NCBI RefSeq assembly: GCF_965363235.1
Contig: NC_134842.1
Coordinates: 2,383,112-2,447,111 of the forward strand
Reading direction: 5' to 3'
Origin: Mytilus galloprovincialis
Taxonomy: Eukaryota; Mollusca; Bivalvia; Mytilida; Mytilidae
DNA length: 64,000 nt
Below are positions 40,201-46,200 of this stretch, piece after piece. The position numbers and the translations under genes were made by a program. Within the stretch, counting starts at the first letter, position 1; every line of letters begins with the position of its first letter. Below the pieces are notes generated by a model that saw only the letters and a list, made by a program, of their open reading frames with translations, was not told the origin of the DNA and made no database searches.

Positions 40201-43200
40201 TGACTTTGATGATCTTAGTGGCCATTAAAACAAGACTAATAGATGTGGGTGATGGAGACAGTGATATAGAGGTAGAATTTAATACTTACAGTCAAACTCT
40301 CTGAATACTTACAGTCAAACCTGTGTATAAGGGTCACCCTTGTTACCAGAGAAATCTGACCTCAATAAAGTATTGGCCTTTGAAGTTAGGTTATTAATGT
40401 CTTTAGGTATCACTACAGCTGGACAAGATTATTATGTACACGTACTAACAAAACAGGTTTTTGTTTGATATAAGTTACCTTTATAGCAGCTTTGACTGTA
40501 TTATCAATTTACATTGTGTATGTAGACAGCAACCTAGCAACACTTAAAAACCACAAGATATTTAGAATGTCTGAGATGATTTTTTGTATATTTGTGCTTA
40601 TGCAATGATTAGTTACCATGTTTTGTTGATGAAGATTGCCTGCTTGCAGAGAACCACTTACTTTCCACATGAAAACTGACAATCTTCAGGGGCAGATCTA
40701 GCCATTTAAAAAAGGGGAGTTCCTAACCCAGGACAAAAGGGGGGGGGGGGGGGGTTCCAACTACATGTCTCCATTCAAATGCATTTTTCGTCCCCAAAAA
40801 AAGGGGGGTTCCAACCCCTTGAACCCCCACCCCTGGATCCCCGCCTACTCTTTGTTAAAAAAAACTTACCAAAAGCATACCTATAAAAAAAATTAATGTG
40901 TTTTTCTACAGAATATTTTGCATCAGACTAATACATACACAATAATTTCATTCCATATTTTAAATGACTTGTTTGTTTAAAACAAATGCTATTAAAATAT
41001 TCTTTTTTTCAGAGATCACTAAGAAGGTTAGCTCAAGAATCTCTGATGTTGATGAAAACAAAGAAATATAAGTATGATATGTCAGGGGATATATGTGCAA
41101 TATGTTTGGACCAGTTCAGTCCTAAACAGGTAATTACATAGTTAGATAGTGTAGTATAGTATGATATGTCAGGGGATATATGTGCAATATGTTTGGATCA
41201 GTTCAGTCTTAAACAGGTAATTAAATAGTAAGGGGGTATAGTATAGTATGATATGTCAGGGGATATATGTGCAATATGTCTGGATCAGTTCAGTCCTAAA
41301 CAGGTAATTAAATAGTTAGGGGGTATAGTATAGTATGACATGTCAGGGGATATATGTGCAATATGTTTGGATCAGTTCAGTCCTAAACAGGTAATTAAAT
41401 AGTTAGGGGGGTGTAGTATAGTATGATATGTTAGGGGATATATGTGCAATATGTTTGGACCAGTTCAGTCCTAAACAGGTAATTAAATAGTAAGGTAGTG
41501 TAGTATAGTATGATATGTCAGGGGATATATGTGCAATATGTTTGGATCAGTTCAGTCCTAAACAGGTAATTAAATAGTTAGGGGGGTGTAGTATAGTATG
41601 ACATGTCAGGGGATATATGTGCAATATGTTTGGATCAGTTCAGTCCTAAACAGGTAATTAAATAGTTAGGGGGGTGTAGTATAGTATGATATGTCAGGGG
41701 ATATATGTGCAATATGTTTGGATCAGTTCAGTCCTAAACAGGTAATTAAATAGTTAGATAGTGTAGTATAGTAGGATATGTCAGGGGATATATGTGCAAT
41801 ATGTTTGGATCAGTTCAGTTCTAAACAGGTAATTAAATAGTTAGGGGGGTGTAGTATAGTATGACATGTCAGGGGATATATGTGCAATATGTTTGGACCA
41901 GTTCAGTCCTAAACAGGTAATTAGATAGTAAGGTAGTGTAGTATAGTATGATATGTCAGGGGATATATGTGCAATATGTTTGGATCAATTCAGTTCTAAA
42001 CAGGTAATTAAATAGTTAGGGGGTATAGTATAGTATGACATGTCAGGGGATATATGTGCAATATGTTTGGACCAGTTCAGTCCTAAACAGGTAATTAAAT
42101 AGTAAGGGGGTATAGTATAGTATGACATGTCAGGGGATATATGTGCAATATGTTTGGATCAGTTCAGTCCTAAACAGGTAATTAAATAGTTAGGGGGTAT
42201 AGTATAGTATGACATGTCAGGGGATATATGTGCAATATGTTTGGATCAGTTCAGTTCTAAACAGGTAATTAAATAGTTAGGGGGGTGTAGTATAGTATGA
42301 CATGTCAGGGGATATATGTGCAATATGTTTGGACCAGTTCAGTCCTAAACAGGTAATTAAATAGTTAGATAGTGTAGTATAGTATGATATGTCAGGGGAT
42401 ATATGTGCAATATGTTTGGATCAGTTCAGTCTTAAACAGGTAATTAAATAGTAAGGGGGTATAGTATAGTATGATATGTCAGGGGATATATGTGCAATAT
42501 GTTTGGACCAGTTCAGTCCTAAACAGGTAATTAAATAGTAAGGGGGTATAGTATAGTATGATATGTCAGGGGATATATGTGCAATATGTTTGGACCAGTT
42601 CAGTCCTAAACAGGTAATTAAATAGTTAGGGGGGTGTAGTATAGTATGATATGTCAGGGGATATATGTGCAATATGTTTGGACCAGTTCAGTCCTAAACA
42701 GGTAATTAAATAGTAAGGTAGTGTAGTATAGTATGATATGTCAGGGGATATATGTGCAATATGTTTGGATCAGTTCAGTCCTAAACAGGTAATTAAATAG
42801 TTAGATAGTGTAGTATAGTATGATATGTCAGGGGATATATGTGCAATATGTTTGGATCAGTTCAGTCCTAAACAGGTAATTAAATAGTTAGATAGTGTAG
42901 TATAGTAGGATATGTCAGGGGATATATGTGCAATATGTTTGGATCAGTTCAGTTCTAAACAGGTAATTAAATAGTTAGGGGGGTGTAGTATAGTATGACA
43001 TGTCAGGGGATATATGTGCAATATGTTTGGATCAGTTCAGTTCTAAACAGGTAATTAAATAGTTAGGGGGTGTAGTATAGTATGACATGTCAGGGGATAT
43101 ATGTGCAATATGTTTGGACCAGTTCAGTCCTAAACAGGTAATTAGATAGTAAGGTAGTGTAGTATAGTATGATATGTCAGGGGATATATGTGCAATATGT

Positions 43201-46200
43201 CTGGACCAGTTCAGTCCTAAACAGGTAATTAAATAGTAAGGGGGTATAGTATAGTATGACATGTCAGGGGATATATGTGCAATATGTTTGGATCAATTCA
43301 GTTCTAAACAGGTAATTAAATAGTTAGGGGGGTGTAGTATAGTATGACATGTCAGGGGATATATGTGCAATATGTTTGGATCAGTTCAGTCCTAAACAGG
43401 TAATTAAATAGTTAGGGGGTATAGTATAGTATGACATGTCAGGGGATATATGTGCAATATGTTTGGATCAGTTCAGTCCTAAACAGGTAATTAAATAGTT
43501 AGGGGGTGTAGTATAGTATGACATGTCAGGGGATATATGTGCAATATGTTTGGATCAGTTCAGTTCTAAACAGGTAATTAAATAGTTAGGGGGTGTAGTA
43601 TAGTATGATATGTCAGGGGATATATGTGCAATATGTTTGGACCAGTTCAGTTCTAAACAGGTAATTAAATAGTTAGGGGGGTGTAGTATAGTATGACATG
43701 TCAGGGGATATATGTGCAATATGTTTGGATCAGTTCAGTTCTAAACAGGTAATTAAATAGTTAGGGGGGTGTAGTATAGTATGATATGTCAGGGGATATA
43801 TGTGCAATATGTCTGGACCAGTTCAGTCCTAAACAGGTAATTAAATAGTTAGGGGGTGTAGTATAGTATGACATGTCAGGGGATATATGTGCAATATGTT
43901 TGGATCAGTTCAGTCCTAAACAGGTAATTAAATAGTAAGGGGCAGTCCATAACTGATTAAATATTTTGACAAAAGGAGGAATCAAATTTCTTTTCAAGTA
44001 TAATAACAAACATTGAAATTCTTTGGTAACATTTTAATGATTCAAGGTATATACTTGGGTTATGGGACTTTATCAAGTTATCAAATGATGAGTATGTGAA
44101 CAACAATATTTTCATGAAGAAACTTGTTTTATTCAAAATTTCATAAGTTGCAGAACTTAGTGTCTGGCAAATAAACTAATATATATGTTCTACTTACACT
44201 TGTAAACAAAGGAAGATAACTCCAGTTCACAATGTTGCCTAAATGATTCAATGCTCAATATAATGCAGTTTACAATTATGGAAACTTAAAGGAATTTTTA
44301 CCCCCTGCACACATGTTCTTTGATATGAGGATTTTGAAATAGAGGACAATTAGTATGGGCATCTTCTTTAAATTTATCTAAAACTTGCTCTTACATGAAA
44401 TATGTACCCAGATAAAAAGTTTGACAGAAAAAAGTTTATATTTCATTTCATATTATTTATGTTGCAATATTTGTAATTGACAGAAATTACGGGTGCTTCC
44501 ATGTTCTCACGAGTTCCACACCAAATGTGTTGACCCTTGGTTGGTAAAAAACAGGACTTGTCCACTGTGTAAACTCAATATTGTTGGTAAGTTATTTTAT
44601 ATTCAGACCATAACTCAGATTGATTGATAATAGAATATTTTCTAATTTAGTACCATACCAGAGAGTAGAGTGAGGATATTTGAAACAGAAATCATGGGCA
44701 ATATACAAACAACCAAAATTATAAAGAGAATGGAACTTCACGGATCAAAAAGTAACCATGGCCAATAAAAAAACAACAATAAAAATTAAGGGAAATAAGG
44801 AACACTTGTTTATGAGACAGAAAACAATACATAAAAACTAAACAAAAGGCATCTAAAGAGTCAACCTTCTATAAGTAACAAATGAACCACAAAAACATTA
44901 ATGATTCAAAATTTTATTTTTCAGTTATTTGGTATTTTGTAAAAAAGGGGTAGGGGTTTTTTACATGTCGCGCCGTATCTCAAAAACAATTTATGATTAT
45001 TAGTTAAAACTTTACACACTTCTTTGTTATATTAATCTAAAGATCTGTATACTTTTTGGTTTTGATTCAAAATTTTATTTTAGTGATATTTAGTTTTTTT
45101 GAAGAAAAAAAAGAGGCGGGGGGGGGGGGGGGGTTCATATGTCCCTCTGTATCTCAATCAAAGAGCTGAAAGCTCTGAGGAAAAATGACGCCACTGTCTC
45201 TAATATTGGGATAGTTTTTATGCAAGTCTTGATTTTCACATACCGTAATTAGTTTAACAATGCAACATGTCTCGTAAGCATGTAATTGATATTAGTATAT
45301 GAGTGTGTGTGAAGTGAAGGTGCCAACTGGCTGTTTTTTTTTTAAGACAAATGAATAGGTCAAGACTACCTGAATTGTACAAATAAATACTGTAGAAAGG
45401 CTTCTATATTTCTCACTGATACATAGGCTGAATCCGGGTCCGTTCGTGCCCATTCACGTTTGCGCCAACTCATGTTCGCCCCCTTTCACTTTCACACCCT
45501 ACATGTTCGCAACTAATCTTAATTGGTTTTGTGTTTAATAACTCTGTAAGCAAGTGTTTTCTTATAAGTATAATTGTTGTCATTGTCTCAAAATAAAGTG
45601 AGACAGCATTTTTTTTTTGTGTTGAATAAATCTTAATCATGTTTTGGATAGCGTATTGTTAAAGATAATAATAATCCTTTCTAAATAAAGTGGTATTTTG
45701 TCAACGTTTTATTTAGCGTTGAATAACTCTTAATCATGTTTTGGTTAGTGTATTGCTATACTTTGTTTCATTGACCTCTTTCATAATGAAGTGAGATTCT
45801 GACTAATTTTTTTTCTGTGTGTTGAATAAATTTTATCATGTTTTGGTTATAATAGTGGATTGCTATATTTTGGTTCCTATATTTTATTGTTTCGTTGTTT
45901 CAGATCAAAGGGCTTAAAAACAATTATCTTTTGTGTTTTTCCTGTAAAATCTTCAATGTTTTACTCATACCAAGCTATAAATACATTCAGTATTTACACC
46001 AAAGCAATTTAAAACAACAATCATGATTTTCCAATTATTCAACTTGAATTTGAATTAAAATTGGGCGCAAATGAGTAGAGTGCGAACGGACCTTGGGTGT
46101 GAACGTGCGAGGTGCGAAAGTGTATTGGGCGCAAACAGACCTGATACCACATAGTCTGAACCCCCTTCTCCCACAAAATATGAAGTAAATTAAAAACAAA

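Follow-up and report, generated by a model that had tools for sequence, protein, structure and literature searches.

A satellite of copied exon ends and splice donors in a mussel RING-H2 gene, and similar arrays at other genes of the genome

The nearest published case that we found to the repeat analysed here, 33 tandem copies of an exon end and its splice donor at the border of exon 8 and intron 8 of a RING-H2 gene of the mussel Mytilus galloprovincialis, is the variable number tandem repeat (VNTR) in intron 18 of human ABCA7 (PMC5954066). Like the other published systems discussed below, it is cited from excerpts of its report. The human repeat starts at the donor of exon 18 and has a 25-base unit beginning with GT. 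As in the mussel, a tandem repeat thus stands directly at an exon with a donor GT in each unit, and the excerpts describe both canonical splicing and a transcript retaining a single unit. However, the ABCA7 unit is wholly intronic and contains no exon, whereas 59 of the 87 bases of the mussel unit are exonic, and the mussel genome has similar arrays at exons of other genes. The mussel array lies in a 64,000-nucleotide stretch of NC_134842.1 (GCF_965363235.1, the one assembly used, 1.38 Gb). This whole stretch is called the window, and coordinates are positions in it.

Three other systems share parts of this arrangement. The exon-centric proximity minigenes (PMC9225289) also place identical donors after one acceptor between long flanking introns, with two engineered donors in transfected cells there and 33 natural donors known from DNA here. 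The [D] stwintrons of Lipomyces (PMC7138796) resemble the mussel array in having a duplication at the donor; they need an internal acceptor and two-step splicing, and their duplications measure 4 to 7 bases. In the mussel, the AG sites of the one unit scanned have short pyrimidine runs (1 to 4), but so has the true acceptor of intron 8 (3). In the Drosophila case (PMC2891723), exon sequence containing a splice motif was duplicated in tandem and one of the copies became intron; there a new intron was made, whereas the last copy of the mussel array precedes unique intron sequence. The intronic repeats of sea-bream MSTN-2 and earthworm metallothionein are not described, in the excerpts, as copies of an exon end standing at a donor. 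Among the papers listed from one open-access library, no title or start of an abstract, beyond ABCA7, spoke of an array that includes the donor of an exon. As far as those papers go, the copied exon end and its recurrence across genes are new.

Anatomy and history of the array

The host gene lies on the + strand and has a RING-H2 domain (PF13639, 58.5 bits against a curated cut-off of 27.3), whose best PDB match is RNF13 (7.7e-21). It is presumed to be RNF215, the name given in the preliminary description of this DNA. Nine exons were found, in a single open frame of 354 residues. Exon 8 (41013..41129) and exon 9 (44484..44586) are placed by this frame and by the RING alignment, in agreement with the borders first proposed, and the protein joined from the two aligns with RNF13 without a gap across the junction. 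The preliminary description had exon 8 carry the first half of the RING finger; the exon does end in the RING, but, by the usual ligand pattern, after the first two of eight zinc ligands (CAIC), the other six being in exon 9.

Positions 41071-43942 hold 33 units, each made of the 59 bases that end exon 8, the donor, and about 28 more bases (Tandem Repeats Finder: period 87, 32.9 copies, 94% matches, score 5017). Copy 1 is the real end of exon 8, with its exon-derived part at 41071..41129 (motif occurrences and unit alignment) and the real donor GTAATT at 41130..41135 (motif occurrences). The other 32 copies, at 41158..43942 (Tandem Repeats Finder and unit alignment), fill the first 2.8 kb of intron 8. 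The donor reads CAG/GTAATT in 33 of 33 units. On the + strand of the window, CAGGTAATT occurs 33 times, always within the array (41127 to 43921) and at spacings of 87 or 88 bases and no other; it occurs once on the - strand. These counts bear out the initial estimate of about 32 copies of 87-88 bp after exon 8 and of some 33 near-identical donors, the real exon end being one of the 33. A 188-base query against the assembly gave at least 32 matches, and all 32 listed are at this locus. The 59 exon bases and the donor present in each unit support the view, already expressed in the preliminary description, that the array grew from the exon end together with its donor. Beyond it lies the unique remainder of intron 8 (43943..44483, delimited from the sequence), 541 bases without an identified exon that end in the acceptor. 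An 18-base probe matches the assembly exactly at just one place beyond the array, a detached fragment on the + strand of intron 5 (38768..38806; 22 bases exact at 38778-38799, wider limits set by eye), about 39 bases that span a unit junction, 2.3 kb upstream of the array. Two familiar structures were considered and rejected: an intron newly gained by tandem duplication, because coding does not resume at the last copy, where those 541 bases intervene, and an array of mutually exclusive exons, because the scanned unit has no usual pyrimidine tract and 2 of the 33 copies contain stops in the exon frame.

The units vary at 15 of 88 aligned columns (8 of 59 in the exon part, 7 of 29 in the intron part) and fall into 23 distinct types among the 32 complete ones, the longest run of identical consecutive units being two. 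The 59-base exon end is identical in units 1, 17, 18, and 19, i.e., three intronic units match the real exon. The same 20 residues are encoded by 21 of the 33 copies; the other 12 have amino-acid changes, two of them stops. When the copied coding sequence was tested for selection, four of seven transitions were synonymous against an expected 0.305 (P = 0.13). All four combinations are present in 29 of 91 pairs of variant sites, and linkage drops with distance (mean r2 0.156 within 10 bases, 0.039 beyond 45). The mosaic variants and the decay of linkage fit repeated exchange or conversion among units. To this extent the earlier proposal of such exchange stands, but neighbouring units are no more alike than random pairs (lag 1, p = 0.39); among 19 lags, lag 14 alone stands out as more alike (p = 0.002). 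Simple local duplication has thus left no visible trace, and growth unit by unit between neighbours was rejected.

Choice among 33 donors

Read-through from donor 1 gives, in frame, VIT and then a stop, within four codons, and the full protein therefore requires the first donor. It had been anticipated that spurious segments would wreck the zinc-binding fold; the sequence predicts an early stop from a later donor instead of a misfolded RING. The computed pairing with U1 is equal in the three donors checked (units 1, 2, and 10). Since the exon end recurs in units 17 to 19 and the donor 9-mer in all units, the selecting signal lies most likely outside the repeat. It would most likely come from the acceptor, from the 58 unique bases of exon 8, or from the order of synthesis, and local sequence appears an unlikely cue. 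The AG sites of one scanned unit have pyrimidine runs of 1 to 4, and the seven true acceptors have runs of 3 to 10, some of these read one to three bases off. The idea that RNA structure conceals the later donors was rejected: three units folded together showed no stability beyond that of column shuffles (z -0.47), and donor 1 is, if anything, less exposed than the others.

The excerpts of PMC9225289 give a rule for such cases: with identical donors and long flanking introns, preference goes to the donor closest to the upstream acceptor, and with short introns the preference is reversed. Introns 7 and 8 measure 741 and 3354 bases, and an intron spliced from the last donor would still have 560 bases; by this rule the first donor is predicted. 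In addition, nascent donors remain tethered to the polymerase, according to excerpts of PMC8316553, which, by our own extension, might also favour an early donor.

We thus propose an account of the locus to which we assign a probability of roughly 0.8. A tandem duplication running from inside exon 8, over the donor, and into intron 8 would have founded the array, and later exchange among units would have brought it to 33 copies. Exon 8 would be defined as a whole by its acceptor together with the closest donor after it, the extra copies would end up intronic and be spliced out, and the array would be tolerated because splicing keeps to the first donor. That the first donor is actually used, and that closeness to the acceptor (possibly together with earlier transcription) is the reason, we infer from the DNA.

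Choice among equal donors has so far been tested with engineered identical pairs, as the excerpts of PMC9225289 present it. The mussel gene offers natural material: 33 identical donors at one intron, each preceded by nearly the same exon sequence. Should the first donor be used throughout, the choice would depend on position relative to the acceptor and not on local sequence. The array also suggests a route by which coding sequence could become an intronic satellite without harm, and it calls for caution in gene finding and read mapping, where copies of exons may be met inside introns.

Similar arrays at other genes and rival explanations

We scanned the whole assembly for donor patterns three in tandem; matches are scan windows rather than arrays, and long arrays dominate their counts. 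The motif CAGGTAATT gave 235 matches (31 of them the exon 8 array) against 37 for its backwards control, MAGGTRAGT 779 against 249, and MAGGTATGT 2099 against 326. There are at least 45 distinct donor arrays beyond that of exon 8, and the 5' edges of 44 were examined and sorted, partly by eye (C1:110079968 was left out, and piece L085 is also unanalysed). Nineteen of the 44 stand at the donor of an exon that is supported by Pfam or PDB, seemingly in 18 genes. They encode a glycogen debranching enzyme (two exons), MTR4, a PDZ protein, a prostaglandin reductase-like enzyme, a tRNA_SAD (tRNA-editing) protein (28.1 bits against a cut-off of 24, with a weak PDB match, 0.019), a cytoplasmic dynein heavy chain, an ABCA transporter, a calcium channel (below the curated Pfam cut-off, counted on a PDB match of 3.5e-07), a FOXP-type protein, a phosphodiesterase, an L-PSP family protein, an SRCR protein, an Ig protein, an SNF2-domain protein, a kinase (likewise below the Pfam cut-off, counted on its E of 2.1e-06 and nothing else), SMC1A, UBR4, and a Kunitz protein. 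Another 13 arrays adjoin an open frame only; all were scanned against Pfam without a match at 0.05, and L070 had none in PDB either. The preliminary description overlooked this recurrence, as well as the published human donor array and the published first-donor rule.

The copied exon part ranges from about 6 bases (L092) to 89 (L059), with 8 in L068. At the 3' side, six of ten edges show a clear array end, with unique sequence after the last copy as in the exon 8 array, and in those six the last copy holds 2 to 9 bases of intron. That the duplication always ends right at the donor was rejected as a general rule, because by another measure the 25 best-measured arrays give 1 to 39 bases. In these 25 little of the unit derives from the intron (a median of 11 bases, or 13%; Kolmogorov-Smirnov test against uniform, p = 0.006), as though duplications tended to end close to the donor, although the choice of arrays may play a part in this. 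Read-through meets a stop in about 20 of 32 arrays, and a stop or a frameshift in about 24 of 32, approximate counts because the unit length is unreliable in about seven arrays, including L038, L057, L068, L092, L098, L105, and L109. In L061, L071, L072, L091, L100, and L107, which include the PDZ, calcium channel, Ig, and SMC1A genes, the unit length is a multiple of three and read-through is open, so a later donor would insert extra residues. Two separate exon-end arrays, L056 and L038 (C1, about 7.06 to 7.07 Mb), seemingly belong to one gene, that of the glycogen debranching enzyme. L074 (C1, about 110.07 Mb) stands in an ABCA1/ABCA7/ABCA4-like transporter gene that matches residues 483-540 of human ABCA7, and hence in the same family as the published human donor repeat.

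Control patterns were compared both by match counts and by distinct arrays, the latter counted by eye among the matches listed. In C1 to 109 Mb, MAGGTRAGT gave 11 distinct arrays and its GC form none; the backwards pattern gave 3 listed arrays, one of them inside another listed donor array, and a fourth starts just past C1 109 Mb. From C1 to C3 15.4 Mb, MAGGTATGT gave 22 distinct arrays, its GC form 5, and its TG-for-AG form (MTGGTATGT) 16. This last control, with 647 matches against 902 backwards, does not separate the cases, because TG sites can be donors too. The genome has less C than T, which explains part of the GC deficit, but the deficit in distinct arrays suggests more than is expected from base composition alone. 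The match-count controls are mixed (MAGGCRAGT, for example, gave 185 against 116 backwards). The open frame upstream of the first donor is longer than at control positions (median 157 versus 94, p = 0.0016, n = 21 with control), and of the 22 MAGGTATGT arrays so tested, 5 singly exceed the 95th percentile of their controls. Acceptor arrays as a mirror class were rejected: the T-rich acceptor patterns, a noisy measure, showed no excess over backwards controls (2116 versus 2438 and 101 versus 107). One acceptor-type array was seen at C1:65943512-65944246 (G000), its unit reading ALERGIYFEIL after TTTTTTCAG.

The odds incline slightly towards the view that the genome has a broad class of satellites seeded by exon ends, which by extrapolation would touch a hundred or more genes, with arrays arising again and again in introns since the first donor always wins. 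The 19 further supported arrays add varied copy numbers and unit lengths to the material for studying donor choice. If the class is real, each array would be a natural multi-copy experiment in splice choice, and the whole set would allow the rule to be measured in living tissue.

Several observations weigh against our account of the array and of its relatives. The true acceptor of intron 8 is weak (pyrimidine run of 3), like the AG sites within the unit. The array donors have a higher predicted exposure (0.34 to 0.69 unpaired) than donor 1 (0.30), and in vitro work cited in the excerpts of PMC9225289 prefers the intron-proximal donor. In the survey, MAGGCATGT gave 298 matches against 40 backwards, a ratio as large as that of MAGGTATGT, and 12 of the 44 arrays have no clear exon (as judged from their edges, with no domain scan for these 12).

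The alternative that survives best, with about even odds, is that the array is a passive minisatellite that included the donor by chance and influences neither splicing nor any other process. The variable sites found in both parts of the unit, the lack of significance of the synonymous excess, and folded units no more stable than their shuffles all suit it, and many tandem arrays of the window touch no exon of the RING-H2 gene. By itself, however, passivity leaves the excess of distinct donor arrays over GC-form arrays unexplained. It is compatible with duplication, exchange, and first-donor splicing as proposed above, and differs from that account only on any effect on the choice of splice site.

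It is doubtful that the intronic units form a pool of exon sequence which two-way gene conversion keeps similar to the exon. An exon end shared with three intronic units, 21 of 33 copies with the same residues, and the mosaic variants could be read in this way, but a young array accounts for the same facts, and a pool of this kind sits poorly with amino-acid changes in 12 copies, two of them stops, and with a synonymous excess that is not significant. We consider it unlikely that splicing makes appreciable use of the later donors and is thereby a brake on the gene, transcripts with the early stop being destroyed and copy number tuning the amount of protein. The donors are equal, the first intronic unit has an in-frame stop, and the excerpts of the ABCA7 report correlate repeat length with lower expression and exon 19 skipping and mention a transcript keeping one unit, apparently the rarer of two frameshifting isoforms (14 and 2 percent; PMC5954066). 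Against this, a stop in AT-rich intron is expected by chance, and exon definition predicts little use of later donors (excerpts of PMC9225289). An assembly artefact is very improbable, given 23 unit types ordered without long exact repeats, similar arrays of other unit lengths adjoining other genes, and an assembly of 331 contigs for 1.38 Gb.

Host gene and remaining features

The other exons of the RING-H2 gene, all on the + strand, were placed by the nine-exon open frame. Exon 1 (34297..34578) has a start ATG picked by eye and the donor GTACGA, and exons 2 (35378..35503) and 3 (36240..36311) have AG/GT borders. They are followed by exon 4 (36725..36810), exon 5 (38672..38726), exon 6 (39394..39501), and exon 7 (40158..40271), the last of which is hydrophobic, as judged from its sequence, and a possible membrane span. 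A donor closes exon 9, and the stop codon would lie in an exon beyond the nine found.

The same gene has a second tandem duplication (36149-36274), this one across an acceptor and comprising the end of intron 2 and the start of exon 3. Its two copies are identical at 57 of 67 bases; copy 2 reads openly, and copy 1 (36149..36215, + strand, 67 bases upstream of the used copy; Tandem Repeats Finder) is a decayed extra acceptor and exon start. Intron 4 contains reverse-transcriptase-like open frames at 37003-37774, their translations judged by eye. Elsewhere in the window, 51232-51507 consists of 30-base tandem units (9.2 copies) that are open as the repeated peptide LFTTLGINHS.

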